Part shown: positions 11,322 to 43,493 of the stretch, one piece after another | How positions within the stretch are numbered: position 1 is the stretch's first letter | Layout: each line of letters starts with the position of its first letter | NCBI RefSeq assembly: GCF_018310535.1 | Contig: NZ_CP074102.1 | Location: forward strand, 434,001 to 498,000 | Length of the DNA: 64,000 nucleotides | Reading direction: 5' to 3' | From: Streptomyces mirabilis | Lineage (GTDB): Bacteria > Actinomycetota > Actinomycetes > Streptomycetales > Streptomycetaceae | The notes under the pieces: generated by a model | The model's database searches: none | Told to the model about the DNA's origin: nothing | What the model saw: only the letters and a program-made list of their open reading frames with translations | Position numbers and translations under genes: made by a program

Positions 11322-12473
11322 CTACCCCGCGTGCAGGGTGAAGGGCACTCCCTCCCGGGCCAGTTCGGCCAGCCATTGCTCGGACCGCCGCGCCGTCTCC
11401 GCGGCGCGGCCGAGGCCTGGCGGAAGCGAACCGTCCAGGATGTGGCGGACTCCGAGGGCGAGTGTGCGGGAGACACAGCGGGCCATGGCGCTCTCCTCGG
11501 CGGTGCCCACGAGATCGAGGAGGTAGCGCCCCGACCAGGCCGCGCCGGAGCCGCCGCGGACGTCGAGGGAGACGGCGAGGACGACCCGGTCACGGTCCGC
11601 GTCAGTGGTCGGATAGGTCTTCGCCAGTTCCTGGGCGAGGTCGGTGATCCGCCGGTCGTCGCCCGCCTTCAGCTCCTCGAAGACCGCGTCCCAGGCCCGC
11701 AGCCAGCCGTCGAGGCGCAGGGTGCCGCGCACGAAGGTCTCCGGCTTCCAGGTGCCGGGAAGCCCGTACTGCTCGACGAAGGGCACGCTGTCGCGGTTGG
11801 GGTAGACCTCGAAGGCCTCGCCGTCGATCAGGTGGGGGCGGGTGGCCTCCCAGGGGCGGTCGGCGGTGGTCTCGGTGCCGTCCTCGACATAACGGGCGGG
11901 CGAGCGGAGAGCGTTGAGCACGCCCGCGGGCGCCCAGCTGAAGCGGTACTTGAAGTCGTTGGGCACGGCGGGGATGCCGCCGCAGTACGAGGTGAGGCGG
12001 TACGAGGCGGCCGACTCGGCGCCGATCTCGGCCTCGGCCCGGGCGATCAGACTGTGCGCGAAGAGGTGGTCGATGCCCGGGTCGAGCCCGCACTCGGTCA
12101 GTACCACCACTCCCGCCGCCTCGGCCGCGGGCACCTGGTCGAGGACCGCGTCCGAGACGTAGCTGGAGCAGGCGAAGTGGGCGCCGCGCTCGACGCAGAC
12201 GCCGAGCAGCGGGGCGTGTTCGGGTGCGGGCAGCATGGAGACGACGACGTCTCCGGGGGTGAGCTCGGCGGCGAGCGCCTCCAGGGTGTACGCGCGGGGC
12301 TCGGCCCGCCCGGTCAGGCCCAGCGCCTCCAGGCTGCGCGCGGCGCGCTCTTCGGTGCGGTGCCACAGGCGTACGCGGTCGGCGGCGTCGCAGGTCGCGG
12401 CGAGACCGCTGCCGGTGGACAGGCCCGCGCCGATCCAGTGGACGGTGCCGCTTGCGGCCGTCACCTCAGACAT
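11322..12473 (-). CDS. Saccharopine dehydrogenase-like protein (LYS9/reductase type)
   Basis: This 383-residue protein starts with a Rossmann motif 'VHWIGAGLSTGSGLAATC' and continues with the saccharopine reductase-type pieces 'GDVVVSMLPAPEHAPLLG', 'GAHFACSSYVSDAV' and 'VVLTECGLDPGIDHLFAH'. 'SYCGGIPAVPNDFKYRFSW' begins the C-terminal substrate domain. Relatives reduce or oxidise saccharopine or other opine-like amino acids. ATG 12473 follows AAGGGGAG, and its first 8 bases overlap the end of the next upstream gene. It is the last gene of a four-gene operon. The exact substrate is not determined here. Confidence 0.8.
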   Translation of the reverse strand: MSEVTAASGTVHWIGAGLSTGSGLAATCDAADRVRLWHRTEERAARSLEALGLTGRAEPRAYTLEALAAELTPGDVVVSMLPAPEHAPLLGVCVERGAHFACSSYVSDAVLDQVPAAEAAGVVVLTECGLDPGIDHLFAHSLIARAEAEIGAESAASYRLTSYCGGIPAVPNDFKYRFSWAPAGVLNALRSPARYVEDGTETTADRPWEATRPHLIDGEAFEVYPNRDSVPFVEQYGLPGTWKPETFVRGTLRLDGWLRAWDAVFEELKAGDDRRITDLAQELAKTYPTTDADRDRVVLAVSLDVRGGSGAAWSGRYLLDLVGTAEESAMARCVSRTLALGVRHILDGSLPPGLGRAAETARRSEQWLAELAREGVPFTLHAG

Positions 12474-13566
12474 CACGCGACTCCCCTTCCTCTGTCTTCT
12501 CCTCTTCCTCAACTTCCCCGGCTTCCTCGGCTTCCTCGGCTTCGAGGGCGCGGCACGCCTCGTGGAAGCGGTCCAGGCAGCGCCCCCACGGACCGCCGAC
12601 CCCGAACTCCAGCAGCTGGGGCAGCAGCGCCGCCGAGAAGTCGACGCTCGCCTCCAGCGGCAGCAGCGACGGCAGATTGTCGATGGCGATCAGGTCGAGC
12701 GCGGGCCGCTCGCGGATGCGGCGGGCGGGGTGCGTCCAGTCCGTCGTGGTGTCGTAGATCGGCAGCACGTTCAGGGGGGAGCCGACGTCGCACGTGACGT
12801 CGCACAGCGTGCGCAGCCGGCGGCCGGGCTCGTCGAGGTCCCTGTCCGTGAGGAAGGGCGGGATCGGCCGGGTGGTGAGCACGGTGTTGACCATCAACTC
12901 GTGTGCCAGCAGCGCCGGTCGGTCCAGCTCACGGGTCTCGTCGAGGTCCCAGCAGGTGGGCTCGACCCCGGCCACACCCAGCGCCACGCGGGCGCCCCGG
13001 CCGCTGCGGCCGAGCGCGCCGATGACGAGGGCTCGCAACTCCCCCTTCTCTGACGCCAGTTCGGCATCGAGCTCCTCCTTCGACATGGGCCGCAAAGGGG
13101 CCTTGAGGCTGCCCCGGTGGTGCAACACCGCCAGGGCGGCGCCCAGGTATCCGGCCCAGTAGCCGAACGCGGCGAGCCTGCGCCCGTCGTCGTGCACCAG
13201 GTACTCGATGTCCAGCAGGGCTCCGCCCCCGGCGATGAACCTGTGGAGCAGAGCGGCTGCCCCGGGCTGCCGCTTGTAGGCATGCCCGAAGAAGACATGG
13301 CGGTGTGTCAGTTCGGCTGGCCCGTCCGGGAGTTCCTTCAGTCCCACGACTACGGCGTCCGGCGGCGCCGACACCCAGGAGCCCGCCTTCGCGACCCGGC
13401 ACCCGGCGTTCTCGTACGCCTCGATGGGGAAGACCCGCTGGGGCGACTCCTCGACCGTGAGCGTCACGCCGCTCTCGACGAGCCGTCGGGCGTCCGAGGG
13501 CACGATCGGGGTACGCCGTTCGGTCGTACGGATCTCGTGGCGCAGCCACAAGTGGAGCTCGGTCAT
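12466..13566 (-). CDS. Saccharopine dehydrogenase, L-lysine-forming type (LYS1-like)
   Basis: This 366-residue protein is close to the length of fungal LYS1. The N-terminus 'LHLWLRHEIRTTERRTPIVP' is the alanine dehydrogenase/PNT-type domain with the Arg and Lys-region residues that bind substrate. 'HVFFGHAYKRQPGA' and 'GALLDIEYLVHDDGRRLAAFGYWAG' follow, and the nucleotide fold is at 'LRALVIGALGRSGRGARV'. A LYS1-like and a LYS9-like protein side by side suggest reversible lysine/2-oxoglutarate/saccharopine chemistry or an analogous opine step. The C-terminus is an odd acidic run of about 25 residues, mostly Glu, encoded by repeated CTTCCTCGG units, and may be slippage-generated. The start at 13566 overlaps the oxidase stop by 4 bases. 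Confidence 0.8.
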   Translation of the reverse strand: MTELHLWLRHEIRTTERRTPIVPSDARRLVESGVTLTVEESPQRVFPIEAYENAGCRVAKAGSWVSAPPDAVVVGLKELPDGPAELTHRHVFFGHAYKRQPGAAALLHRFIAGGGALLDIEYLVHDDGRRLAAFGYWAGYLGAALAVLHHRGSLKAPLRPMSKEELDAELASEKGELRALVIGALGRSGRGARVALGVAGVEPTCWDLDETRELDRPALLAHELMVNTVLTTRPIPPFLTDRDLDEPGRRLRTLCDVTCDVGSPLNVLPIYDTTTDWTHPARRIRERPALDLIAIDNLPSLLPLEASVDFSAALLPQLLEFGVGGPWGRCLDRFHEACRALEAEEAEEAGEVEEEEKTEEGESRDV

Positions 13567-14708
13567 ACGAGGTTGACCTCCGGGCGCGGGGCGTCGGCGG
13601 TGAAACGCTCGACGCTCAGGGGGCTGATGTCGACGAAGGGTACGCGGCCCAGGTACAGATCACGGATCACCTCGCCGACCGCCGGCCCCTGGAGGAAGCC
13701 GTGGCCCGAGAACCCGGTCGCGTACAGGAAACGTGAGCACGAAGGCGCCTCGCCGATCAGGGCGTTGTGGTCCGGGGTGATCTCGTACAGGCCCGCCCAG
13801 CCGCCCGTCCGGCGCAGGTCGAGCAGGGCCGGGGCGCGGCGCTCCATCGCCTCGGACAGGCGGGGGATCCAGCGGTCGTGGGTGGTGGTGGCGAAGCCGG
13901 GGACCTCGTCGGGGTCGGACATGCCGAGGAGGAGGCCGGGGCCCTCGCTGTGGAAGTAGAGGCTGGTGGTGAAGTCGATGGTCATGGGGAGGTCGGGCGG
14001 CAGGCCCGGGACGGCTTCGGTGACGGCGATCTGGCGGCGCAGCGGTTCCACCGGCAGGTCCACGCCCACCATCGCGCCGATCGCCCGCGACCAGGCACCG
14101 GCCGCGCAGACGACCGTGTCGGTGGCGATCCGCCCCTGGCTGGTGACGACCGCGGTGATCTCGTCGCCGCGGGTCTCGATGCCGGTGACCTCGCGGTGCC
14201 GCAGCAGGGTCGCGCCGTGCCGGCGGGCCCCGGCCGCGTAGCCCTGGACGACGGACTCGGGCGTGCAGTGCCCGTCGTCCGGGGAGAAGGCCGCCGCCCG
14301 CAGCCCGTCGGTGGTGATCAGCGGGGAGAGCCGCCGCGCCTCGGCCGGGTCGATCAGGCGGCTGGGCACCCCGAGCGCGTTCTGCAGCCGTACGCCGTCC
14401 TCGAAGGCGGCGACCTCCTCGGGCGTGGAGAGCAGGAACAGATAGCCGACCTGGTGCAGCCCGATGTCCTGGCCCAGCTCCTCACCGAAACGGACGAACG
14501 CCTCCAGACTCCGGGCACCCAGCTGGATGTTCAGCTCGTCGGAGAACTGCGCCCGGACCCCGCCCGCGGCCCGCGAGGTGGAACCGGAGGCGAGTTCGTC
14601 GCGCTCGACGAGCACCACGTCCGGCACGCCCGCCCTGGCCAGGTGGTAGGCGATGCTCGTGCCCATCACCCCGCCGCCGATCACGACGACCCGCGCGCTC
14701 CCGGTCAT
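13563..14708 (-). CDS. FAD-dependent amino acid oxidase (DadA/glycine oxidase family)
   Basis: This 381-residue protein has an N-terminal dinucleotide motif 'VVVIGGGVMGTSIAYHLA' followed by 'VVLVERDELASGSTSRAAGG', typical of D-amino acid, glycine and sarcosine oxidases. The C-terminal FAD contact is 'GLYEITPDHNALIGEAP' with 'YATGFSGHGFLQGPAVGEV'. It probably oxidises a secondary or D-amino acid to an imine. The operon places it between a cyclodeaminase-type reductase and two saccharopine-type dehydrogenases. That would fit moving a cyclic imino acid or an opine into central metabolism, which is inference. Four-base ATGA overlaps link it to both neighbours. Confidence 0.82.
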   Translation of the reverse strand: MTGSARVVVIGGGVMGTSIAYHLARAGVPDVVLVERDELASGSTSRAAGGVRAQFSDELNIQLGARSLEAFVRFGEELGQDIGLHQVGYLFLLSTPEEVAAFEDGVRLQNALGVPSRLIDPAEARRLSPLITTDGLRAAAFSPDDGHCTPESVVQGYAAGARRHGATLLRHREVTGIETRGDEITAVVTSQGRIATDTVVCAAGAWSRAIGAMVGVDLPVEPLRRQIAVTEAVPGLPPDLPMTIDFTTSLYFHSEGPGLLLGMSDPDEVPGFATTTHDRWIPRLSEAMERRAPALLDLRRTGGWAGLYEITPDHNALIGEAPSCSRFLYATGFSGHGFLQGPAVGEVIRDLYLGRVPFVDISPLSVERFTADAPRPEVNLV

Positions 14709-15682
14709 GGGCGCGTCTCCCGGGCGCGAGCGGCCTCGATCACGGCCCAGGCCGCGGCGGCGTCCTGGATGCCCAGCCCGACGCTGTTGTAGAAGACGAT
14801 GTCGTCGGGGTGGGTGCGGGCCGGGTGGCGGCCGGTGAGGACGCCGCCGAGCGGGATCAGGTCGGCACGGGTGAGTACTCCGTCCCGCAGCGCGTCCACG
14901 ATCGGTCCGGCGTGCTCCGCCGCCGTCTCCGGGTCGTCGACCACGACCGCCGCCGCCCGCCGTACGACCTCCGTGTCGACCTCGCTGCGGGTGGGCTCGA
15001 AGGAGCCGACGCTCACGACCGTGCACCCGGGCGCCAGCCACGCGCCCCGTACGACGGGTGTGCTGCTGAGCGTGCAGGCGGCGACCATGGGCAGGCCCGC
15101 GACGGCTTCCTCCGCCGTGTCGACGGCCTTGGTCGCGACCCCGAGTTCCGTCGCGAGGCGCCGCGCCGCCCGCGCCCGTCGGGCCGGGTCAGGGCTCCAC
15201 ACCCGTACGGACCTGAGGTCCCGCACCCGGGCGACGGCCCGCGCGTGGGCGAGAGCCTGGGTGCCGGAGCCGAGAAGGCCCAGCTCCGCGCTGTCGGCGG
15301 TGGCCAGCGCGTCGAGGGCGACGGCGCTCGCCGCGGCGGTGCGCAGGGTCGTGACCGCCGTACCGTCCATGACGGCGGCGAGTTGCCCGGTCACCGGATC
15401 GAGCGCGTTGATCACGGCGTGCACCGTCGGCAGCCCGGCCGCCGTGTTGGCCGGGTTGACGCTGCCGAACTTGGCGACGGCCCCGGTGTCCGCGGACAGC
15501 CGGGCGAGGTAGGCGAAGACGACACTGTCGTCGAATCGGCTGGGGTGCATGATCTTGCCGGGGAGCTCGGCGGTGCCGTCACCGAGCGCGGTGAACGCCG
15601 CGCGCTGCGAGGCGATCGCCGCATCGGTGTCCAACAGCTCCGTCACCCGGTCCCGGGAGAGGTACAGGACGTCGTCGGTCAT
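14705..15682 (-). CDS. Ornithine cyclodeaminase/mu-crystallin family protein
   Basis: This 325-residue protein is of normal family length. Diagnostic regions are 'AELPGKIMHPSRFDDSVVFAYLARL' with the substrate-binding Lys, 'LPTVHAVINALDPVTGQLAAVMDG', 'TTLRTAAASAVALDALA', and the nucleotide fold 'LGLLGSGTQALAHARAV'. Members include ornithine or lysine cyclodeaminases, ketimine reductases and delta-1-pyrroline-2-carboxylate reductases. The sequence alone does not decide between them. It is the first gene of the operon. The ATG at 15682 follows AAAGG, and the stop overlaps the oxidase start. Confidence 0.82.
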   Translation of the reverse strand: MTDDVLYLSRDRVTELLDTDAAIASQRAAFTALGDGTAELPGKIMHPSRFDDSVVFAYLARLSADTGAVAKFGSVNPANTAAGLPTVHAVINALDPVTGQLAAVMDGTAVTTLRTAAASAVALDALATADSAELGLLGSGTQALAHARAVARVRDLRSVRVWSPDPARRARAARRLATELGVATKAVDTAEEAVAGLPMVAACTLSSTPVVRGAWLAPGCTVVSVGSFEPTRSEVDTEVVRRAAAVVVDDPETAAEHAGPIVDALRDGVLTRADLIPLGGVLTGRHPARTHPDDIVFYNSVGLGIQDAAAAWAVIEAARARETRP

Positions 15683-15757
15683 TCCTTGTACCTTTCCCCG
15701 CACGCACCTCTCTCACCACAACCGACGCCTCCGGGTGACGTCCTCGGGCGCCCGCGC

Positions 15758-16447
15758 TCAGGAGGAGTGCGAGACCACCACGTCCAGGTGCGGCAGGAAG
15801 TGGTCGAGGCGCTCCCGCTTGGTGCGCAGATAGGTGATGTTCTGCGGGCACGGCGGTATGAGCAGCGGGACCTGCTCGGTGACCTTGATGCCGTTGCGCT
15901 GGAGCGACTCCCGCTTGCGCGGGTTGTTCGAGAGGAGGCGTACGGAGCGGACGCCGAGGTCGTGCAGGATGTCCGCCGCCACCCGGTAGTCACGGGCGTC
16001 GACCGGAAGGCCGAGGGCGACGTTCGCCTCGACGGTGTCGAGGCCCTCCGACTGGAGCTTCATCGCCTGCAGCTTGGCGAGCAGGCCGATGCCGCGGCCC
16101 TCGTGGCCGCGGAGGTACACGAGGACGCCACGGCCCTCCGCGACGATGGCGCGCAGCGCGGCGGCCAGCTGGTCGCCGCACTCGCAGTGGGTGGAGCCGA
16201 AGGCGTCCCCGGTGAGGCACTCCGAATGGAGCCGGGTGAGGATGCCCTCCTTCGTGGCGCCTTCCCCGCTCTTGCTGAGGTCGCCGACCTCGCCGTAAAC
16301 CAGGGCCACTTGCTCCTCTCCGCGATCGTGATCCAGGAAGCCGACCGCCTGGAAGTCCCCGTACACGGTGGGCAAAGGGGCATTGACGACTCGTTCGACA
16401 CCTGTGAGGCGTGCGGTCCCGGCGAGTACTCCAAAGTTATCTGTCAT
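15758..16447 (-). CDS. ribA: GTP cyclohydrolase II
   Basis: This 229-residue enzyme opens GTP to 2,5-diamino-6-ribosylamino-4(3H)-pyrimidinone 5'-phosphate, releasing formate and pyrophosphate. The Zn ligands are Cys77, Cys88 and Cys90 ('SECLTGDAFGSTHCECGDQ'). The catalytic 'YLRGHEGRGIGLLAKLQAMK' starts at Tyr111, and 'LLSNNPRKRE' binds guanine. From memory, the S. coelicolor paralogue that stalls at a formylated product has Met in place of that Tyr, so full activity is predicted here. The protein is not fused to RibB and no other riboflavin gene is adjacent. It is divergent from a creatininase-fold hydrolase across 49 bp, and I assign it to the pathway cluster that continues to 23335. Confidence 0.92.
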   Translation of the reverse strand: MTDNFGVLAGTARLTGVERVVNAPLPTVYGDFQAVGFLDHDRGEEQVALVYGEVGDLSKSGEGATKEGILTRLHSECLTGDAFGSTHCECGDQLAAALRAIVAEGRGVLVYLRGHEGRGIGLLAKLQAMKLQSEGLDTVEANVALGLPVDARDYRVAADILHDLGVRSVRLLSNNPRKRESLQRNGIKVTEQVPLLIPPCPQNITYLRTKRERLDHFLPHLDVVVSHSS

Positions 16448-16460
16448 GATCTGGTTCCTA

Positions 16461-16484
16461 AGCAGAGTCGAAAGCAGAGTCGAA
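16461..16484. repeat. 12-bp tandem repeat in the ribA/hydrolase divergent promoter
   Basis: AGCAGAGTCGAA occurs twice head to tail, filling about half of the 49 bp between the two divergent starts. Its position makes it a good candidate binding site for a regulator that controls both genes. Confidence 0.7.
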
Positions 16485-16496
16485 AGGCCGTGAAAC

Positions 16497-17300
16497 ATGA
16501 GTGGTTCGGGAACGCGCTCGGCGGTATCCGGTCTGTTGCCGGCGGACACCACGGAGGATGTGCGCGAGCGGGGGGCCGGTGTCGCCCGTGAGGTCGCCGT
16601 GCTTCCCGTCGGGAGTTTCGAACAGCACGGTGCCTATCTTCCGTTGGCGACGGACACCCTGGTCGCGTGCGCCGTCGCGGAACGGATCGCCGCCGCTCAT
16701 CCGGTCCATCTCCTCCCTCCGGTGACGATCTCCTGCTCGCACGAGCACGCGGCCTGGCCGGGTACCGTCAGCATTTCCGCCGTCACGCTGCACGCGGTGG
16801 TACGGGACATAGCCGCATCGCTGCGCCATTCCGGCGTCGACACCCTGGTGCTGGTCAACGGGCACGGCGGGAATTACGTGCTGGGCAATGTGGTTCAGGA
16901 ATCCGTCGGCACCGGTACGCGTATGGCGCTTTTCCCGGCCATGGAGGACTGGGAGGCGGCGCTGGAACGGGCAGGCGTGGAGACCTCGTTGCTCACCGAC
17001 ATGCACGCCGGTGAAATCGAGACCTCCATTCTTCTGCACACGCACCCCGAATTGGTCCGGCCCGGTTACGAGACCTCTGATTTCGTCGCGGACGACCGCC
17101 GTCATCTGCTCACCCTCGGAATGGCCGGCTATACCGAGTCCGGCGTCATCGGCCGTCCCTCGAAGGCGTCCGCCGACAAGGGGAAGGAGCTCCTGGCCGG
17201 GCTGACCGAGGCCTTCGGGGCGTACTTCTCCTTGGTGACGGCGAAGACGCTGCCCACCGCCTCCGACGCGGCCCCGGTCAAGGGGACTTCCGGAATGTGA
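16497..17300 (+). CDS. Creatininase-family amidohydrolase (candidate formamide hydrolase)
   Basis: This 267-residue protein carries the whole creatininase metal centre: Glu42 and His44 in 'PVGSFEQHGAYLPL', Asp53 in 'ATDT', His122 in 'VNGHGGN' and Glu172 in 'HAGEIETS'. 'SCSHEHAAWPGTVSI' forms the substrate loop. The family includes creatinine amidohydrolase, the mycofactocin peptidase and the archaeal ArfB, which removes formate from the formylated GTP cyclohydrolase product. Since it is divergent from ribA by 49 bp, an ArfB-like step on a ring-opened GTP product is the most economical idea. Its last 172 bp overlap the end of the convergent membrane-protein gene. Confidence 0.85.
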   Translation: MSGSGTRSAVSGLLPADTTEDVRERGAGVAREVAVLPVGSFEQHGAYLPLATDTLVACAVAERIAAAHPVHLLPPVTISCSHEHAAWPGTVSISAVTLHAVVRDIAASLRHSGVDTLVLVNGHGGNYVLGNVVQESVGTGTRMALFPAMEDWEAALERAGVETSLLTDMHAGEIETSILLHTHPELVRPGYETSDFVADDRRHLLTLGMAGYTESGVIGRPSKASADKGKELLAGLTEAFGAYFSLVTAKTLPTASDAAPVKGTSGM

Positions 17301-18688
17301 ACTTCGGCGGTCTCTGACGCTCGGCATTGATCGTGCCCTCCTGCGTTCTCCTGCCGGGGGCGCCGCAGCGCCGCGAACCACCGGACGACCAGGACCACGA
17401 CGCCGGGCAGCGCGGCGGCGAAGCTGAGCACTCCGTAGATCACCGCGACGCTCAGGCCCATGCCGGCGCCCAGCCCGGCGGCGCCGAAGGCCCAGGCCAT
17501 GACGCCTTCCCTGGGGCCCCAGCCACCGATGTTCAGCGGCAGGCCCATGGCGAGCAGGGCCAGCAGGGCGAGCGGCAGCAGTACCGTGGCGGAGGCGTGG
17601 GATCCGGCGACGCGGGCGGCGAGCAGGAACATCGCCAGATGTCCCGCCAGCACCACGACCGACGAGATGAGCACGCCCGGCCAGTTGCCGCGGGCGAGCA
17701 GCGCGCCGCGCGCCTCGATGAGCGCGGCGCGGACAGCTCCGTAGCGCCGGGACGAGCCGGACGAAGCTCTGCCCCTGCGAACCGCGCCCGCCGTCACGAC
17801 GACCCCGCACACCGAGACGATGGCCAGGATCAGGGCGAGGTGGCGGGCGTCCGTGAGGACCGGTGACGGCAGGGTGAGCAGGACCACCGCTCCGACGGCC
17901 ACCAGGACCGCCTGGCCCGCGGTCCGTTCGAGGACCACGGCGCGTACGCCGCGGCCGACGTCCCCGGTGCTCTGGCCGTGTCGTACAGCGCGGTGCACAT
18001 CGCCGAGGACACCGCCGGGCAGCGCCGCGTTCAGGAACAGCGCGCGGTAGTAGTCCGCGACGGCGCCGCCCAGCGGCAGCCGGATCCGCAGCCCACGCGC
18101 CACCAGGCACCAGCGCCAGGCGCTGAACACGGTGGTCAGCAGACCGAGCCCAAGCCCTGCCAGCAGGATCGGGCCGTCGACCCGCCGCAGCCCGTCCAGG
18201 AAGACACCGGTACCGAGCCGCCAGAGCAGCACACCGAGGATGAGGACACCGGCGACGGAACCGATGTGCGTGCGCAGCGCGCCCCCCTTGCGTCGGGCGG
18301 GGGTCGCTTCGGCTTCCTGCCGGGCCGGGGTCGGGGACGTCTCGGCGTCGACGTGTACCGCGGCGGCCGCGTCCCGCCCGCCGTCGCCGGGCGGCGGTAT
18401 GACGGCGAGTCTGCCGCGGTCGGCTTCCGCGGCGGGGCGGGGACGCAGGAGCTCCGTCAAGCGGCGGCCCGGCATCACGTTCGACTCGCCCTCGGTGTGC
18501 GGCTCACCCTCAGAGTGCGGCTCACCCGTCTCGCCACCGGTCGGTGCCGTGTCCGCGTGACTCACGTCGCCGCACACCGCGACCAGGTCCACGTCGGCGT
18601 GGGCCCGGACAGCGGTCGCCGCATCGCGCTCGCGGGACGTGCCGGCGTCCACGCCGACCGCCTCCGCCGTCCCCGCCCCGGCGCTCAC
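17129..18688 (-). CDS. UPF0104 / lysylphosphatidylglycerol synthase-type membrane protein
   Basis: This 519-residue protein begins with a hydrophilic, low-complexity N-terminus of about 135 residues, then has about 8 membrane segments, starting 'VAGVLILGVLLWRLG'. The family mark is 'MGLPLNIGGWGPREGVMAW' near residue 395, shared with the membrane half of MprF-type flippases. I infer transport or presentation of a lipid-linked product. The GTG at 18688 overlaps the methyltransferase stop (GTGA). No stop occurs in frame before 17129, so about 57 C-terminal residues are read antisense to the creatininase gene. That tail may be real or may reflect a frameshift. Confidence 0.75.
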   Translation of the reverse strand: MSAGAGTAEAVGVDAGTSRERDAATAVRAHADVDLVAVCGDVSHADTAPTGGETGEPHSEGEPHTEGESNVMPGRRLTELLRPRPAAEADRGRLAVIPPPGDGGRDAAAAVHVDAETSPTPARQEAEATPARRKGGALRTHIGSVAGVLILGVLLWRLGTGVFLDGLRRVDGPILLAGLGLGLLTTVFSAWRWCLVARGLRIRLPLGGAVADYYRALFLNAALPGGVLGDVHRAVRHGQSTGDVGRGVRAVVLERTAGQAVLVAVGAVVLLTLPSPVLTDARHLALILAIVSVCGVVVTAGAVRRGRASSGSSRRYGAVRAALIEARGALLARGNWPGVLISSVVVLAGHLAMFLLAARVAGSHASATVLLPLALLALLAMGLPLNIGGWGPREGVMAWAFGAAGLGAGMGLSVAVIYGVLSFAAALPGVVVLVVRWFAALRRPRQENAGGHDQCRASETAEVHIPEVPLTGAASEAVGSVFAVTKEKYAPKASVSPARSSFPLSADAFEGRPMTPDSV

Positions 18689-19629
18689 GCCGCACCGTCC
18701 GTCGGTCGCGGCAGCGCCAGTACGTCACTGTGGTGGACCCGTACGCGCAGCTCACCCGCGGCGCAGGCGGCGAGGCGGGACTGCAGATACGACTCTGCAC
18801 GGGCGGCCAGCGCGGGCCGCTCCTCGACGGCCGCGCCGACCCAGCCGCGCAGCCACTCCGCCGTGAGGTCGGCCTCGTCGGCGCCGAGCCGCCAGGGGCT
18901 CGGATGCACCCGTACCGTCGCGCCGTGCCGGTCGAAGGCCTCACAGGCCGCCGTGATCGCGTCGGGGCCGAGCAGTTCCCCGCGCCGCTGGTGGGCGTTG
19001 AACGCCTCGATGAACTCGGCGTCCAGCGGATCGGCCGGTGTGAACTCGACGCGCCCCACGACGGAGAGCGTGAGCAGGGCCGGCACCCCGGCGCCCGCGC
19101 AGGCCGCCGCGAGCCGGTCGATCTCCTCGCGGGTCAGCACGTCGAGCAGGGCGGACGCCGTCACCAGTGACGCCCCGGTCAGCGCGTCCGCGGTCAGCCG
19201 GCCGATGTCACCGCGCTGGGTGGTGACCGTGACCCGGCTGCCGTCGGCGGCCGCGTGCGGTGCGCCCACGGTCGCGAAGTGCAGCAGATACGGGTCCCGG
19301 TCGTGCAGGATCCAGTGCTGGGCGCCGTCGAGCCGGGGGGCGAGCCACCGGCCCATGGAGCCGGTGCCGCAGCCGAGGTCGTGGATCACCAGGTCGCCGC
19401 CGCGGCCCGGCCGGTTCGCCAGCCGGATGCGCAGCGGGTCGAGCAGTTCGGGCGCCCGTGCGGCGGCGTCCGCCGGCTCCCGCAGCTGGAGCCACTGGGG
19501 GGCGTAGCGGGGCACGTCGTCGTCGGGCGCGCTCGCGCGCTGCCCCGGAACCCCGGACACACCACCCTGCACGCCCACCTCCGACACGCCCTGTTCCGGA
19601 ACTCCCGACGGAGTCGCAGTCATACTCAT
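18685..19629 (-). CDS. SAM-dependent methyltransferase
   Basis: This 314-residue protein has a class I methyltransferase fold. After about 75 residues, motif I is 'DLVIHDLGCGTGSMGRWLAP'. 'HWILHDRDPYLLHFA' supplies the acidic residue that binds the ribose, and 'LVTASALLDVLTREEIDRL' follows. The first 40 residues are Gly/Val/Pro-rich and probably disordered. The start at 19629 (GGAGG six bases upstream) overlaps the glycosyltransferase stop as ATGA. An alternative ATG lies two codons on. The substrate is unknown; methylation of a glycosylated or pterin-like intermediate would fit the cluster. Confidence 0.83.
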   Translation of the reverse strand: MSMTATPSGVPEQGVSEVGVQGGVSGVPGQRASAPDDDVPRYAPQWLQLREPADAAARAPELLDPLRIRLANRPGRGGDLVIHDLGCGTGSMGRWLAPRLDGAQHWILHDRDPYLLHFATVGAPHAAADGSRVTVTTQRGDIGRLTADALTGASLVTASALLDVLTREEIDRLAAACAGAGVPALLTLSVVGRVEFTPADPLDAEFIEAFNAHQRRGELLGPDAITAACEAFDRHGATVRVHPSPWRLGADEADLTAEWLRGWVGAAVEERPALAARAESYLQSRLAACAAGELRVRVHHSDVLALPRPTDGAA

Positions 19630-20912
19630 GCCGCCCTCCGAGGCTGCTGCGGAAGACGTCCCAGCACTCCGGCCAGGCTGCGGGCGGTGGTCGCCCAGCC
19701 GTCCAGCGCGGCCCGGCGACTGCGCGCGGCGGCCTTCAGCCGGCGGCGCACATCGGCCTCGCCGAACCAGCCGCGCAGTTCCGCGGCGAGCGCCGCCGGG
19801 TTCTCCGGAGGTACGAGGATGCCGGGGACCCCGCCGTCGGGCGCGCGCCCGACCGCCTCGGGGAGACCGCCGACGTCGGTCGCCAGCACCGGGATCCCGC
19901 GCGCGAGTGCCTCGGTGACGGCCATGCCGTACGTCTCGGCGTAGGAGGTGAGGACCATGAGATCGGCCGCCGCGTAGCTCGCGTCGAGTTCCGCGCCCGC
20001 CTGCGGTCCGGCGAGGTGCAGCCGGTCGCCGAGCCCGTACTTCCCGATCAGGGTGCGCAGCTGGGCGACATACGCCGGGTCCTGGGTGAGTCCGCCGACG
20101 CAGACGCAGCTCCAGGGCAGGTCGGTGACGGTGGCGAGGGCCTCGACCAGCCGGTGCTGGCCCTTGCGCGGGGTGACCGCGGCGACGCACAGCAGCCGGG
20201 AGACACCGTCGGTGCCGGAGGCGAGGGGCGCGATGTCGGCGCCCGGGGCGGCGACATGGACCCGTTCCGGGGCGAGCCCGTGGTGGGCGACCAGCCGGCG
20301 GACGGCCCAGTCGCTGGTGGCGACGACGGCGGACACGGCCCGCAGCGTCGCCCGTTCCTTCGCGTCCAGCTCGGCGGCCGCGGCGGGCGCGAGCCCGGTC
20401 TCGTCGCCGAGCGGCAGGTGCACCAGGACGGCGAGACGCAGCCGTTCGGCCTCGGGGACGATGATCTCGGGGACGCCGCAGGCGACCAGCCCGTCGAGGA
20501 GGACGACCGCGTCGTCCGGGAACTCACTGAGCGTGCGAGCCAGCTCCGCACGGGCGGAAGCCGACGGTCGGGGCCAGCTGCCCGCGACGGCGTGCTTGTG
20601 GACCTGCCAGCCGAAGCCGGGCAGGTCGAGGCAGAGCCGCCGGTCGTAGGCGTTGCCGCCGCTGGGCGCGGACGCGTCGTCGACACCGCCCGGCATCACG
20701 AAGTGCACGGAGCGCAGGGACATGGGGATGATCTCGGCGTTCTTGAGAGCCGTGTGCTGCACGGGCACGTAGTTCAGGGAAGCCTGGTCGCCGTTCGCGG
20801 ACGCCGGGCCGGTCTTCGGAGCCGCCGGGCTGGTCTTCGGGGACACCTGACCGGTCTTGGGAGACACCTGACCGGTCTTCGGGGACGCCTGGTCCATGGT
20901 CGTGTCGGTCAC
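19626..20912 (-). CDS. Glycosyltransferase family 4 protein
   Basis: This 428-residue GT-B enzyme begins its fold at '[20 protein letters not shown]', whose Gly-Gly loop binds the donor. It continues through '[15 protein letters not shown]' and '[20 protein letters not shown]' to the donor site '[26 protein letters not shown]', with the E-x7-E pattern of retaining GT4 enzymes. The N-terminal 45 residues are repeats of 'SPKTGQV', likely unstructured, so translation could also start at the internal Met before 'SLRSVHF'. The GTG at 20912 overlaps the PTPS stop. I expect it to transfer a sugar to the cluster product. Confidence 0.85.
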
Positions 20913-21307
20913 AGTGCACGCTCGTAACTCGCCCAGGCGATGTGCGACTCGTGCAGGGTGACCGTGATGCCCGCGAGGCCTTGGGCGCCCTCGCCGAGGG
21001 CCCCCGCGTGCACGCGCTCGGCGAGGCGGTCGGCGATGACCTTGGCCAGGAACTCCGTCGAGGTGTTGGTGTTCTTGAAGTCCGGTTCGTTGTCGAGGTT
21101 GCGGTAGTTCAGCGCGCTCACGACTGCGCCGAGTTCCTGCGTGGCCAGACCGATGTCGACGACGATGTTGTCGTCGTCCAGCTCGGCCCGGCGAAACGTG
21201 GCGTCCACCAGGAACGTCGCCCCGTGCAGGCGTTGCGCGGGCCCGAAGACCTCGCCACGGAAGCTGTGGGCGATCATCAGGTGATCGCGGACGGTGATGC
21301 TGAACAA
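20909..21307 (-). CDS. 6-pyruvoyltetrahydropterin synthase homologue with altered active site
   Basis: This 132-residue T-fold protein has His in 'LMIAHSFRG' and '[15 protein letters not shown]', the first two Zn positions. The usual His-Gly-His-Asn-Tyr motif has become His-Gly-Ala-Thr-Phe, so the third ligand is gone. The insert with the catalytic Cys is absent, and the Asp-His of 'LDHxNLD' is 'LNYRNLDN'. The anchoring Glu is kept in '[13 protein letters not shown]'. Normal PTPS chemistry is therefore unlikely. It may bind a pteridine or pyrimidine and catalyse another step. TTG 21307 has GGAGG at 8 bases; an upstream GTG at 21331 is also possible. The stop overlaps the glycosyltransferase start. 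Confidence 0.82.
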
Positions 21308-21444
21308 CGGACGACCCTCCAGGTGCGGCACGTCTGATCCCCTGCCGGGACCATGCCGTGTAGTACGGCTGCCCCGTTCTCCTTGTTCAGCTGCCTGTTC
21401 CCCTTTCTTTGCAGTTTTTGGAGGTCAGGCAGGTTGTTCAGTGC

Positions 21445-22425
21445 TCAAACGCCTTCGTAGACGACGCGATGGCACAGGCCGGGTATCGATCCGGAGGCCA
21501 ACTTCGGCATCACGTCGGGCAGTTCGTCGAAGCCGCACTCACCGGTGACGAGCGCGTCAAAGGCGGGCTCGGCGAGCAGTTCCAGGGCGAGCGCCAGCCG
21601 ATCGGCGTACGTCCGGCTGGCGCGCCGCGCCGGTGAAACGGAACCCACCTGGCTGCTGCGCACGACCAGGCGCCGTGAGTGGAAGGCCTCGCCCAGGGGC
21701 AGGCTGACCCGCCGGTCGCCGTACCAGCTCATCTCCAGGACGGTGCCCTCCTGGGCGAGGAGCTCCAGCGACCGGGTGAGCCCGGCCTCGGTGGCGCTGG
21801 CGTGCACGACGAGGTCGCACTCGCCCGCGGCGTCCGCGGGGAGCGCGAAATCGACGCCCAGGGCGCGGGCGATGTCGGCGCGCGCGGGGTCGGCGTCGAC
21901 GAGCTGGACGCGTACGCCCGGGAAGCGGGCGAGGAGCGCGGCGATGGAGCAGCCGACCATGCCGCCGCCCACCACGGCGATCCGGTCGCCGACCAGCGGG
22001 GCCGCGTCCCACAGCGCGTTCACCGCGGTCTCCACGGTCCCGGCGAGCACCGCGCGCGGGGCGGGGACGGAGTCCGGTACGACGGTCACGGCGCTCAGCG
22101 GCACGACGTACCGCGTCTGGTGCGGATACAGGCAGAAGACGGTCCGGCCGCGCAGACCCGCCGGGCCTTCCTCCACCTGGCCGACGCTCAAATAGCCGTA
22201 TTTCACCGGTCCGGGGAAATCCCCCTCCTGGAACGGTGCACGCATCGAAGCATGCTGACTTTCCGGAACGCCGCCGCGGAAGACGAGGGTCTCGGTGCCC
22301 CGGCTCACCCCCGAGTAGAGCGTGCGCACCAGCACCTCCCCCTCGGCGGGGGCCGACAGGGCGACCTCGCGTATCTCGGCGTGGCCGGGCGAGTTCAGCC
22401 AGAAGGCACGAGCTGTGAGTTCCAT
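21445..22425 (-). CDS. MDR-superfamily (zinc-type) dehydrogenase without catalytic Cys
   Basis: This 326-residue protein begins with a GroES-like domain in which the usual Cys-Gly-x-Cys-x-Gly-Thr-Asp is 'TLYSGVSRGTETLVFRGG', so the catalytic-zinc Cys is missing. The structural-zinc Cys cluster is also absent. The Rossmann domain at 'GDRIAVVGGGMVGCSIAALLA' is intact, with 'VQLVDADPARADIARALG'. The 'YSGVSRGTE' signature occurs in BchC-like and related zinc-free dehydrogenases. It should oxidise or reduce an alcohol in the cluster pathway with NAD(P). It starts at ATG 22425 and is the first gene of the minus-strand operon, 137 bp from the PTPS start, divergent from the phosphatidyltransferase. 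Confidence 0.8.
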   Translation of the reverse strand: MELTARAFWLNSPGHAEIREVALSAPAEGEVLVRTLYSGVSRGTETLVFRGGVPESQHASMRAPFQEGDFPGPVKYGYLSVGQVEEGPAGLRGRTVFCLYPHQTRYVVPLSAVTVVPDSVPAPRAVLAGTVETAVNALWDAAPLVGDRIAVVGGGMVGCSIAALLARFPGVRVQLVDADPARADIARALGVDFALPADAAGECDLVVHASATEAGLTRSLELLAQEGTVLEMSWYGDRRVSLPLGEAFHSRRLVVRSSQVGSVSPARRASRTYADRLALALELLAEPAFDALVTGECGFDELPDVMPKLASGSIPGLCHRVVYEGV

Positions 22426-22531
22426 GAGCGTCCCCCTGAACGATTCAGCAGATCTTCACGTACGGAGCGGTGACAAGCCGCGCACTGTACGCGGCGTTGA
22501 TCGACTCTGTCATACGGCCGGAGGATGTGCG

Positions 22532-23335
22532 GTGGCCCTGAACAACACGTACGACGCGAGGCTCTTGGCGCAGGAGACCATGGTGGGAGCGGGTCTGCAG
22601 CTCCTGGTGCTGGCTCTGCTGGGCACGGCGATCGGGATGGGGCCCGCGGGCTGGCTGACCGGTCTGGCCTTCGCGCTCGCCACCTGGGCGGTTCTCACCC
22701 GTGCCCTGCGTCGCTCACGGCCCCGCTCCTTCGGACCGGCCAATCGGGTGACGCTCGGCCGGGCCATCCTGGTCGGCGGGGTCACCGCCCTGGTCGCGGA
22801 CTCCTTCGAGAGCTCGCCCCCGGTCAGCCTGCTCGTCGGTCTCACGGCGGTCGCCCTGATCCTCGACGGGGTGGACGGCAAGGTCGCCCGTCGCACCGGC
22901 ACCTCGACCGCGCTGGGCGCCCGCTTCGACATGGAGGTGGACGCGTTCCTGATCCTGGTGCTGAGCGTGTACGTCTCGATGTCGCTAGGCCCGTGGGTGC
23001 TGCTGATCGGCACCATGCGGTACGCGTTCGTGGCGGCGGCCCGGGTGCTGCCCTGGCTGAACGCGGCGCTGCCGCACAGCATGGCGCGCAAGACCGTGGC
23101 GGCCCTTCAGGGGATCGTGCTGCTCGTCGCGGGCGCCGGGATCATGCCCCTGGAGGGCAACGCCGCCGCGGTGCTCCTCGCGCTCGCCTCGCTCGTCTGG
23201 TCGTTCGGCCGCGACATCACCTGGCTGTACCGCCACCGCCACCCGGTCGAGGAGCGGACGCAGGAGCAGGCGCGGAACCAGCAGGAGCAGGAGCAGCAGG
23301 TGCGGGACGGCGTCCGCGAGCTCGTCGAAGCGTGA
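22532..23335 (+). CDS. CDP-alcohol phosphatidyltransferase
   Basis: This 267-residue membrane protein has about 6 hydrophobic segments. The full family signature is present: Asp112, Asp115-Gly116, Ala119-Arg120, Gly129, Asp133 and Asp137 in 'LDGVDGKVARRTGTSTALGA' plus 'RFDMEVD'. It should displace CMP from CDP-diacylglycerol or another CDP-alcohol, using an alcohol acceptor at the membrane. The C-terminal 25 residues are Glu/Gln-rich and coiled-coil-like. GTG 22532 follows GGAGG. It is divergent from the dehydrogenase across 106 bp and closes the cluster. The acceptor may be the small molecule the cluster makes, which is inference. Confidence 0.85.
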   Translation: MALNNTYDARLLAQETMVGAGLQLLVLALLGTAIGMGPAGWLTGLAFALATWAVLTRALRRSRPRSFGPANRVTLGRAILVGGVTALVADSFESSPPVSLLVGLTAVALILDGVDGKVARRTGTSTALGARFDMEVDAFLILVLSVYVSMSLGPWVLLIGTMRYAFVAAARVLPWLNAALPHSMARKTVAALQGIVLLVAGAGIMPLEGNAAAVLLALASLVWSFGRDITWLYRHRHPVEERTQEQARNQQEQEQQVRDGVRELVEA

Positions 23336-32384: not shown

Positions 32385-33005
32385 TTCGGACCTTGCGGTT
32401 GGCCAGCCACTTCGTCAGCCGCGTGACGCCGACGCGGCGGATGGCGGCCGACGTCTGGTAGCCCGTCAGCAGCCTGAGCGGGCCGGTGTTGGTCACCTCC
32501 AGCGCTCGTTCCAGGGCGGGGAACATGCTCAGCAGGGTGCTGCGCAGACGGTTGACGACGCGGGTGCTCGGTCCTCCACCAGGTCAGACCGGCGGCCGGT
32601 CAGCAGCTTGAGTTCGACGGCGGCTTCGTCACCGGGGCGGATGGCTCGCAGGTCGCGGCGCATCCTGGCCTGATCGGCGATCACGTAGGCGTCGCGGGCG
32701 TCGGTCTTGCCCTCGCCGCGGTAGCCGTCGAATGCCCGGTTCACCAGACGGCCGGACATGTAGAGGATCTCCTGGCCGTGGCTGACGAGCCGGGCCAGCA
32801 GCAGTGCGGGTTCCCCGCCGGTCATGTCGATGGCCCAGATGACCTGACGGCCGTCGGCCAGGTCCAGGACATCACCGATCACCTTCAGCAGCTCAGGCTC
32901 GTCGTTGGCGACCCGCCGCGACAGCAGCGTCGTGCCGTCCGAGTCCAGAGCAAGGCCGTGATGATGGCCCTTGCCGCTGTCGATCCCCGCCCATATCCGG
33001 CTCAT
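32385..33005 (-). pseudogene. IS110-family transposase remnant
   Basis: The N-terminal RuvC-like DEDD domain is recognisable: 'IWAGIDSGKGHHHGLALDSD', 'QVIWAIDMTGGEPALLLARL' and 'GKTDARDAYVIADQARM'. A frameshift near 32565 moves the reading to another frame, which continues 'MFPALERALEVTNTGPLRLL' and 'RVGVTRLTKWLANRKVRNAV'. After about 32385 homology ends, so the catalytic Ser half is lost. IS110 elements lack terminal repeats and none were sought. The element is inactive. Confidence 0.82.
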
Positions 33006-34197: not shown

Positions 34198-35440
34198 TCA
34201 TGTCTGGGATGCGGCTTGTCGCCGGTAATGGCTGGTGAGGGATCGCTGCTGAGGGAGCCGCCGCCAGTGCGACCAGCCGAGCCGGTGGGCCATGTCGTGG
34301 CGAGGCTGCACGGCGACCGTGATGAACAGGCGCTGGATCGCGTTGCAGGACAGCAGGACCGGGCTGTCCGGGGTGGAGCTGCGGGCGTGTTCGTCGGCAC
34401 GGACTACCGCGCGGAAGGCGTGGGCGAGCAGCGCGAGGGTGACCCAGCGGGTGCAAGAACGGTAGTGGCGGACCTGGTGCTCGTCGAGTCCCGCCAGCCC
34501 TTTCTAGGCCTGGAAGGTCTCTTCCACACGCCACCTCGAACCAGCGGTCTTGACCAGCGCAGTCAGCGGGACCAGCTCGGTGGAGTGACTGCGGTAATAG
34601 GCGAGTTCACCGGTGGTGCGGCTGCGGCGGATCAGGAGCTGGTGGCTGCCCGGCGTCGGGTCGACGAGGTCGACGACGGCCCAGTCGTAGAACCGTTGTC
34701 CCTTCGCACCGCGTCCGGCCGAGAGCTTCTGCCAGGCCCGCTTCGGCACTTTCTTCACCAGGGCATCGGCGGGGAACCTTCCTGCACCTGTGGCCATTTC
34801 GGCCGAGCAGACCACGGCAAGGACATAGCCGATGCCGCGCTCCTTCAGCGCCGCGCGCAGTCTCGGGTTGCCGCCACAGACCTCGTCACCCGTGACCCAG
34901 CCGACGCGGTGTCCGGTATCCCAGAACCGTTCGATCATCCTGAGGGCCAGGTCCGGCTTGGTCGCGAAAACGGTGTCCTCGCCGAGCCCCGCCGCCCGGC
35001 AGCGATCCGGATCGCCCGTCCAGGAACAAACGGTGCACGGACCAGTCCGAGTAGGCGAACCAGTTGGCTGTGGGCCGACGACTGTGGGCCGTTGTCCGAT
35101 GCCGCCGATACCCCGTGGTCGACCTGATAGGGATGAGGCCAGACCTCAAAGCCCGCTCCAGCGCGAGCGCCGCGCCCTCACCGGGGTCGGACAGTGAGCC
35201 GATGCAGGCAGTAGAGGCCTTGGTGAGTTGCGGTGCAGCAGCGAAGTACCGCAACCGTCGAGACGAAAGGTGAGCGCCAACGGCCGCGTATAGCCGAACG
35301 ATCAAGGTCCTACGCTGCAATGACCTTGCCGCCGACAGTTCGGGACGAAGAGGTCGTGCCAGAACCGTGCGAGATCGTGTGGGGAACCACGGGGAATGGC
35401 AGGCACCATGTCGACGGCCAGGCAAGCCTTGCCGTCGCTC
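34198..35440 (-). pseudogene. IS701-family transposase remnant (copy 2)
   Basis: The core is readable: 'CRAAGLGEDTVFATKPDLAL', 'VGWVTGDEVCGGNPRLRAAL', 'GERGIGYVLAV'-like text (here 'KERGIGYVLAV'), 'LAYYRSHSTELVPLTALVKT' and 'SRWRVEETFQA'. An in-frame TAG at 34504-34506 then interrupts it, after which 'KGLAGLDEHQVRHYRS' to 'RLGWSHWRRLPQQRSLTSHY' continue to the TGA at 34198. The N-terminal third is in other frames (up to about 35440), so at least one frameshift accompanies the nonsense change. The DDE residues cannot all be placed. The element is inactive. Confidence 0.82.
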
Positions 35441-40957: not shown

Positions 40958-42091
40958 TCAGCGGTCGGCGGGGATGGACGCGGGCGCGGGGGCGGGCACC
41001 GGCTCGGACGACGGCTCTGCCTCGGCCTCGGGCGTCGCGAGCACCGGCCCCCACGGGAACGGCGGATCGGGGATCTCGCGGCGCAGCACCGGAGCGACCT
41101 CCGACTGGAAGCGCGCAAGGGAGTCGCGGTGCTGGGCGTCGCCGAGACCGCTCGCGTCCGCGTGCAGATGCAGCACCGTGTGCCCGAACCGCTCGTGGTA
41201 GCGGTGCACCTTGTCGATGATCTGCTGGGGGCTGCCGATGAGGGCCGAGCTGCGCTCGACGAAGTCCTCCAGTGTCGGGAAGACGGGCTCCAGGCCCAGG
41301 CTCTTCTGGAAGGCCAGGTTCCCCTCGAACACCGGGCGGTACGCGGCCAGCGCCTCCTGCGACGTACGGCCCACGTAGAGGCCCGCCGTGCCCGCGCCCA
41401 CCGCGATGTCGGCCGGGTCGTGGCCGTAGTGCTCCCAACGCTCGCGGTAGTAGCGGATCAACTCGGCATAAGGCTCTATGGGGTTGGTGACGTTGGCGGA
41501 GAAGAGCGGGTCGCCGTAGCGGGCGGCCAGGTCGACCGACTCCTTGCTGGTCGCACTGCCGTGCCAGACCCGGATCGGCTGCTGGTACGGCCGGGGCCAC
41601 ACCTCCGCGTCCTTGAGTTCCGGGCGGAAGCGGGTCTCGGCGGTCACCTGGTCCTGGCGCCAGATCTTGCGGAACACCTCGTAGCTCTCGGCGTTGCGGT
41701 CCCACTGGTCCTCGGGGGTGACGTCGAAGAGGTCGCGCTGGGCGGCCCCGTTGCCCTTGCCGATGATCAGGTCCAGGCGACCGTCGGAGAGGTGGTCGAG
41801 GGTCGCGTAGTCCTCGTACGCGCGTACCGGGTCGAGAAGGCTGAGCGTCGTCACGGCCGTGAAGAGGCGGATGCGCTGGGTGAGCGCGGCGATGTGGCTG
41901 AGCACGACGGGCGGCGAGGACGAGATGAACGGCCGCTCGTGCCGCTCCCCCACGCCAAAGCCGTCGAAGCCCAGCTCCTCGGCGAGCAGGGCGTTGCCGA
42001 GGACCTCGCGGAACCGGTCGTGAGTGGGCTTCTGCACGCCGGTGATCGGGTCCGGCCGGTGCACGATCAGGGTGATGGCCAGGAATTTCAT
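40958..42091 (-). CDS. LLM-class flavin-dependent oxidoreductase
   Basis: This 377-residue luciferase-like monooxygenase has 'MKFLAITLIVHRPDPITG', 'ELGFDGFGVGERHERPFISS', 'DHLSDGRLDLIIGKGNG' and 'PIRVWHGSATSKESVDLAAR'. The last 30 residues are a Pro/Ala/Glu tail. It should require reduced FMN from a separate reductase, and no reductase gene is present in the operon. The start overlaps the upstream monooxygenase stop (ATGA), so translation is coupled. A sulfonate- or sulfone-cleaving role is inferred from the neighbouring importer and leader peptide. Confidence 0.83.
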   Translation of the reverse strand: MKFLAITLIVHRPDPITGVQKPTHDRFREVLGNALLAEELGFDGFGVGERHERPFISSSPPVVLSHIAALTQRIRLFTAVTTLSLLDPVRAYEDYATLDHLSDGRLDLIIGKGNGAAQRDLFDVTPEDQWDRNAESYEVFRKIWRQDQVTAETRFRPELKDAEVWPRPYQQPIRVWHGSATSKESVDLAARYGDPLFSANVTNPIEPYAELIRYYRERWEHYGHDPADIAVGAGTAGLYVGRTSQEALAAYRPVFEGNLAFQKSLGLEPVFPTLEDFVERSSALIGSPQQIIDKVHRYHERFGHTVLHLHADASGLGDAQHRDSLARFQSEVAPVLRREIPDPPFPWGPVLATPEAEAEPSSEPVPAPAPASIPADR

Positions 42092-43476: not shown

Positions 43477-43493
43477 GAGTGGGTCCCTCCGGC

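Follow-up and report, generated by a model that had tools for sequence, protein, structure and literature searches.

What does a RibA-type GTP cyclohydrolase do among genes for a creatininase-fold hydrolase, a flippase-like membrane protein, a methyltransferase (MT), a GT4 glycosyltransferase, a PTPS-fold protein, an MDR dehydrogenase and a CDP-alcohol phosphotransferase? This question is raised by an eight-gene set at positions 15758-23335 of a stretch of 64,000 nucleotides, here called the window, from the 9.6 Mb chromosome of Streptomyces mirabilis. Gene families were assigned by Pfam and, for finer assignment, by curated NCBIfam/TIGR models with their own cut-offs, and all eight contiguous genes listed in a preliminary description of the window were recovered, those for the dehydrogenase and the MT just under the Pfam cut-offs. 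We consider it probable that the cluster encodes a specialised pathway whose first steps resemble archaeal riboflavin synthesis and which departs from it afterwards.

With the PTPS protein as query, matches were obtained in 107 of 197 genomes of the order, all within one of six genera, in 80 of 121 genomes of a family (f8) which, judging from named Micromonospora PTPS matches at 76-78% identity, would be Micromonosporaceae, in 57 of 394 genomes of the class and in 10 of 396 genomes of the phylum. The stretches sampled around such matches were hand-picked to include divergent and close ones (36 of 37 class matches outside the genus, 35 of the 80 f8 matches, 34 of the 107 order matches, and the window) and amounted to 106 loci, of which 19 with short flanks were excluded from the gene count, leaving 87 loci from 86 genomes. 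Within 9 kb of PTPS, these contain genes for MDR (86), GT4 (83), UPF0104 (78), CDP-alcohol phosphotransferase (75), RibA (71), MT (69) and creatininase (36), as well as for two kinds of RibD_C reductase, ribD2 (38) and ribD1 (20; either one in 58). The nearest cluster gene before PTPS is MDR in 86 of the 87 loci and the nearest after it, on the same strand, is GT4 in 83. Median best-query identities of the neighbours lie at 58-72%, depending on the cluster gene family, with a range of about 31-99%. Given these identities and the recurrence of the set in other phyla, conservation of the neighbourhood, a check proposed in the preliminary description, is beyond chance.

Proposed GTP ring opening and deformylation

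The ribA gene (15758-16447, minus strand) is of the SCO6655 type, and as its likely start we chose ATG 16447, inside the longest open reading frame (ORF), which extends to 16552. Its product matches PF00925 (GTP_cyclohydro2) with 217 bits (cut-off 23.3) and has cysteine at all three equivalents of the zinc triad C54, C65 and C67, which supports the opening of the GTP ring as entry reaction, as had been proposed. In an alignment to E. coli RibA, the residue opposite Tyr105 is a methionine, encoded by ATG at 16061-16063 on the minus strand. In the E. coli enzyme this tyrosine is needed for the full deformylating reaction, and Spoonamore and co-workers reportedly found in 2006 that SCO6655 halts at the formylated product, a formylated pyrimidine (FAPy), owing to its methionine; FAPy is the predicted end point of the window enzyme, too.

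The adjacent gene for the creatininase-fold hydrolase (16497-17300, plus strand; PF02633, 207 bits) encodes the predicted deformylase of the RibA product. Two enzymes would then share an opening reaction for which one suffices in most bacteria. Residue 105 was compared in 82 RibA-bearing loci, one per genome. In all 43 loci with a creatininase in the stretch, RibA lacks the tyrosine (31 Met, 7 Leu, 4 His, 1 Gln); where no creatininase was found in the stretch, the tyrosine is present in 37 of 39 loci, the remaining two having a leucine (L188) or an unreadable position (L217). The L188 genome has a creatininase (62%) about 13 kb from PTPS, outside the sampled stretch. Also, the RibAs of alphaproteobacterial clusters kept the tyrosine in seven of seven cases, and no creatininase was found in the stretches examined there. 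Because of this pattern and the reported end point of SCO6655 at the formylated product, the creatininase-fold enzyme is most likely the deformylase, in support of what the preliminary description had suggested. Its metal site is intact as claimed there, the motifs E.HG.{7}D and HAG..ET occurring in all 43 cluster copies and GHGGN in 41, with AHGGN in the other two.

When compared to curated models, the window hydrolase scored below the cut-offs for ArfB (NF033501, 34.8 versus 180 bits), MftE (TIGR03964, 128.1 versus 172) and creatininase (TIGR04448, 95.2 versus 235), and none of these three assignments was kept. The low ArfB and MftE scores, and the existence of related creatininase copies away from RibA, would suit a scheme in which the formyl group is kept, FAPy being the true intermediate, and the creatininase-fold enzyme cleaves a different amide later on. 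This scheme seems improbable to us, as clusters with Tyr-type RibA share the same downstream genes without the creatininase, and Tyr-type RibA, acting as GTP cyclohydrolase II is known to do, should yield the deformylated compound. RibA of one lineage plus creatininase appears to replace RibA of another lineage, probably through one event.

In three f8 genomes (L244, L250 and L251), several copies or fragments of creatininases from this subfamily lie close together, away from RibA. On the other side of ribA, window positions 11322-15703 hold saccharopine-dehydrogenase-like, alanine-dehydrogenase-like and ornithine-cyclodeaminase-family genes, and a gene of the last family adjoins ribA also in L054 and L224.

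Reductase, PTPS-fold protein and dehydrogenase

A RibD_C reductase, absent from the eight genes, would also belong to the pathway. It is encoded in the cluster in 58 of the 87 loci and, in the genome studied here, only elsewhere (in trans). Among Streptomyces clusters with full flanks and a creatininase, 18 of 24 have a RibD_C gene, located between creatininase and UPF0104 where inspected. The clade of the window has no RibD_C gene in the cluster; its counterpart elsewhere in the genome is RibD2, related at 55-59% to the reductases of L041 and L045 and divergent from RibA3. An orthologue of RibD2 was found in none of 18 Streptomyces genomes whose cluster includes ribD1 (best match 3.9e-17), in trans in all 14 without cluster ribD1 (1.9e-104 or better), in all 16 genomes of group f91 (6.6e-32 or better) and in two of six Streptomyces genomes without PTPS. 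As judged from the RibA tree, in which the ribD1-less Streptomyces form one clade, this complementarity is a matter of few events. RibD2 of L041 has the archaeal diaminopyrimidine reductase as its best model (128 bits, cut-off 186). In L172 and L177, RibA and RibD_C share one ORF; a triple fusion with the CDP-alcohol phosphotransferase, considered for L172 from overlapping coordinates, was not confirmed, and only the RibA-RibD_C fusion stands.

The genome has one PTPS, four RibA, five RibD_C and two creatininase copies and one each of DHBP synthase and lumazine synthase. All RibD_C matches, the other RibA copies and the sole DHBP and lumazine synthases, both of which lie beside RibBA, are outside the window. 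The earlier statement that no other riboflavin genes are present is therefore right for the window and does not extend to the clusters of relatives, which hold the RibD_C reductase. A deaminase domain was not found on the four cluster RibD proteins tested (RibD_C alone in L041 and L058, RibD_C plus RibA in L172 and L177). With these RibDs and the location of the sole DHBP and lumazine synthases, simple duplication of riboflavin synthesis is ruled out, as the preliminary description had argued. A related idea, that the cluster merely supplies precursors for riboflavin or F420, draws on entry enzymes common to riboflavin synthesis. We regard it as highly improbable, since the genome keeps its sole DHBP and lumazine synthases together elsewhere with RibBA, since neither was seen among the annotated plasmid neighbours of relatives (in the other loci, family searches covered part of the ORFs), and since PTPS is absent from 90 of the 197 genomes of the order.

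The PTPS-fold protein (20909-21331, minus strand) belongs to the family by Pfam (81 bits), is of the SCO6650 type and stays below both NCBIfam cut-offs. Compared with PTPS/QueD (COG0720), it has kept the glutamate of the LHESH motif and lost the catalytic cysteine, one zinc histidine and the Asp-His pair. In 180 homologous sequences, some of them from the same genome twice, the catalytic cysteine is replaced by alanine in 179 (one gap) and the second zinc histidine by alanine in 178, the aspartate and the histidine of the Asp-His pair are kept in two and three, respectively, and the glutamate of LHESH or LRESH is kept in 174. A working pterin synthase was rejected because of these losses, a correction to the preliminary description. 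PMC5041015 names PTPS subfamilies IV-VI. PTPS homologues without MDR or other cluster genes nearby were seen in the Streptomyces loci L044, L052 and L277, in one case plasmid-borne and next to a MEKHLA-domain gene.

The MDR dehydrogenase (21445-22425, minus strand; ADH_zinc_N, 28 bits, cut-off 31.8) is BchC-like, this being the closest model (57 bits, cut-off 291), and the nearest solved structures are polyol and alcohol dehydrogenases. MDRs usually bear a zinc cysteine motif; here the cysteine is absent from the motif SG[VI]SRGTE (SGVSRGTE in the window), 33 of 175 sequences being off the searched pattern. MDR, PTPS and reductase probably act together, as they were found without the other genes in a few loci. 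Among these, L045 and L046 contain MDR, PTPS and reductase only; L052 has PTPS only.

Membrane genes and versions outside actinobacteria

The remaining genes encode GT4 (19626-20912, minus strand; PF00534, 105 bits), a class I S-adenosylmethionine-dependent MT (18685-19629, minus strand; Methyltransf_25, 26.9 bits, cut-off 27), kept in relatives, an UPF0104/LPG_synthase_TM flippase-like membrane protein (17129-18688, minus strand; PF03706, 99 bits) and the CDP-alcohol phosphotransferase (22532-23335, plus strand; PF01066, CDP-OH_P_transf, 52 bits). For the last gene the likely start chosen is GTG 22532, inside the longest ORF, which begins at 22322. Its full motif D..DG..AR.{8,9}G...D...D is located at 22865-22942 and is intact in all 87 copies checked. 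Four-base overlaps (GTGA, ATGA, GTGA) do occur at the three junctions PTPS/GT4/MT/UPF0104, as described before; the minus strand, however, carries six genes, ribA, UPF0104, MT, GT4, PTPS and MDR, and not five, and the plus strand carries two, for creatininase and CDP-alcohol phosphotransferase. The UPF0104 gene shares 172 bases at its 3' end with the creatininase gene. We dropped the idea that this overlap is a scar of reductase loss, as in L058, where ribD1 is present, one frame of the minus strand is also open across the overlap.

A sulfatase-like membrane protein is encoded in the stretch in 43 of 105 sources clustered and is fused in one ORF with the CDP-alcohol phosphotransferase in 12; of three such ORFs studied by Pfam, both parts were recognised in one (the second under the cut-off) and a single part in each of the other two. 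The window has no sulfatase-like protein, and an UvrA-like gene follows instead. Compared with the preliminary description, the set is extended by the RibD_C reductase and, in many relatives, by the sulfatase-like protein. An FkbM methyltransferase family member was found in seven loci, in all six inspected of which MT is absent (Pfam check on one).

Among 23 plasmid records with PTPS, the stretches of 18 were examined. Six from Rhizobiaceae (L276, L280, L285, L288, L290 and L291) hold a fuller gene set, all of them with sulfatase-like protein, UPF0104, CDP-alcohol phosphotransferase, RibA, MDR, PTPS, GT4, MT, RibD and cytochrome b561 (checked by Pfam on two), and four with FkbM. Shorter sets occur in Thiodictyon, Methylosinus, Neorhizobium and two Rhodobacterales. 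The 11 proteobacterial stretches contain MDR (11), GT4 (10), RibD (10), RibA (7), CDP-alcohol phosphotransferase (7) and UPF0104 (6). Thiodictyon has cytochrome b561 like the six Rhizobiaceae, which makes seven proteobacterial clusters. On the Rhodobacterales plasmids L281 and L282, sugar-kinase family genes (ribokinase, PfkB) lie beside the core.

Three Haloarcula plasmids carry a distant version, with MDR at 37%, PTPS at 30-31% and CDP-alcohol phosphotransferase at 27-37% over part of the length. Two of these plasmids, which share one layout and have 98% identical cyclohydrolases, carry a GTP cyclohydrolase III gene next to MDR (PF05165, 272.6 bits); on the third, a creatininase gene lies about 0.7 kb from the CDP-alcohol phosphotransferase gene. 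The haloarchaeal PTPS lacks the HGA motif and is therefore a cousin from another subfamily.

These distributions bear on whether one pathway or two are encoded. In the latter case, RibA, creatininase, reductase, PTPS and MDR would make a soluble pyrimidine or pterin, and GT4, MT, UPF0104 and CDP-alcohol phosphotransferase would make a separate glycolipid at the same locus. Such a division would fit L045 and L046, as well as the Rhodobacterales plasmid L281 with MDR, PTPS, reductase and MT, all without lipid genes, and it would fit the ORFs examined, in which the CDP-alcohol phosphotransferase is joined to the sulfatase-like protein in the 12 loci mentioned and never to RibA or RibD. We think it unlikely, because GT4 comes next after PTPS so regularly in the 87 loci and is present in 10 of the 11 proteobacterial plasmid stretches, and because the translational overlaps in the window link PTPS with GT4, MT and UPF0104.

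Elsewhere in the window, reading of the ORFs without a family search indicated short ones resembling transposase fragments (32529-33005 and 34504-34938) and a run of genes resembling flavin-dependent, luciferase-like monooxygenases (40958-44729).

The proposed route and its relation to known systems

In the single pathway that we favour, RibA with methionine at the Tyr105 position would open GTP and halt at FAPy, as suggested by the residue and the reported experiment. From the comparative pattern, the creatininase-fold enzyme would then remove formate to give 2,5-diamino-6-ribosylamino-4(3H)-pyrimidinone 5'-phosphate, and a RibD_C reductase, encoded in the cluster or in trans, would turn the ribosyl into a ribityl chain. 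Less firmly, MDR and the PTPS-fold protein, the latter without PTPS chemistry, might alter the side chain or form a ring of the pterin type. Finally, going by their families, MT, GT4, CDP-alcohol phosphotransferase and UPF0104 might methylate and glycosylate the product, attach it to a phospholipid and move it at the membrane. The early steps are likely, the late ones are suggested by gene families, and the nature of the product and its lipid linkage are putative. HAD phosphatase genes adjoin the cluster in some relatives (by Pfam, 12124-12801 in L191, a kind found in seven loci, and 12566-13234 in L177), and their products could take off the 5'-phosphate.

Several observations weigh against this route. 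In the RibA tree (87 rows), the non-Tyr RibAs of Streptomyces and f91 group together (support 99/91), and most Tyr-type cluster RibAs fall into another clade, with RibA3 and RibA4 of this genome; the pattern of tyrosine and creatininase, lying in two clades that group together, may therefore reflect a single event and not 43. Of 27 f8 genomes searched, eight, all of the Tyr type, contain creatininase homologues (54-64%) at other sites, in two of them as fragments only, and neither RibA nor any further cluster gene was found near these in stretches L244-L251, so that the subfamily is not limited to a role in the cluster. For ribD1 of L058, the general RibD C-terminal model is best (121.8 bits) and the archaeal reductase model third (102.9). 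RibD2 may have another job, as it occurs in genomes without PTPS and, in three of 14 RibD2 loci inspected, beside Tyr-type RibA. In 16 of the 87 loci, the 9 kb around PTPS did not yield a RibA gene. The lipid genes are missing around MDR/PTPS in L275, L281, L282 and L284 and in L045 and L046, which speaks against an obligatory lipid step.

A wider reading, put forward tentatively and with less confidence than the route as such, is that the end product belongs to a new class of membrane molecules, in which a ribityl-pyrimidine or pterin derived from GTP would be methylated, glycosylated and anchored to a phospholipid; this class would have representatives in actinobacteria and proteobacteria and a distant haloarchaeal version. 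Its entry would exist in three exchangeable forms, a complete RibA, a RibA without the tyrosine plus creatininase, or GTP cyclohydrolase III. Because of the cytochrome b561 in the seven proteobacterial clusters, the product is perhaps a redox cofactor.

GTP cyclohydrolase III makes FAPy. With archaeal ArfA (GTP cyclohydrolase III), ArfB and ArfC, the proposed route shares the order of steps, that is formation of FAPy, deformylation and reduction without prior deamination. Two of the Haloarcula versions even carry GTP cyclohydrolase III in the cluster, whereas in the window RibA and a creatininase that stays under the cut-off for ArfB serve instead.

Studies of SCO6655 and SCO6650 by Spoonamore and co-workers, including SCO6650 structure 3d7j, reportedly dealt with single proteins. 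The window is the locus corresponding to the SCO6650/SCO6655 region of S. coelicolor, and 3d7j is the best match of its PTPS in the PDB (E 2.5e-77). By position the eight genes would be SCO6648-SCO6655, SCO6650 and SCO6655 having been checked in sources and the rest following from order; of the similar cluster around SCO6650-SCO6655 mentioned in the preliminary description, the two ends are therefore secured. SCO6655 is annotated as GTP cyclohydrolase II in PMC2853524, and PMC3509567 refers to Spoonamore 2006 with respect to altered activities of three Streptomyces GCHII genes. The creatininase, the reductase, MDR, the lipid genes and the wide conservation are not covered in the literature within reach. 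No account of the cluster or pathway was found in the open-licence literature; subscription papers were outside this scope, and priority is unproven.

Deformylation of FAPy is an idea already known, like the single proteins SCO6650 and SCO6655. According to PMC9478397, BrbF of Sinorhizobium meliloti is a creatininase-annotated FAPy formamidase serving riboflavin, whose partner cyclohydrolase was not identified. By description, not by sequence, the window hydrolase resembles BrbF in the creatininase annotation and the proposed reaction. In contrast to BrbF, it is paired with a RibA lacking Tyr105, in a pathway that seems to turn away from riboflavin.

With regard to S. coelicolor, PMC3610822 gives SCO6652 as up about 20-fold (log2 4.3) in sporulating cultures at 48 h versus first mycelium at 16 h, and PMC2853524 lists SCO6655 among genes anticorrelated with predicted flux, most of which are up in stationary phase. 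The late rise of SCO6652 and SCO6655 suggests a late, developmental role, and the product may therefore matter in development.

In summary, the locus represents a conserved uncharacterised pathway, a version of which is present in S. coelicolor and the first half of which is testable. A bacterial enzyme of the creatininase fold is given a proposed role next to a RibA that would form FAPy, and RibA paralogues without Tyr105 are suggested as candidates for the missing cyclohydrolase (BrbG) that the authors of the BrbF work did not find.

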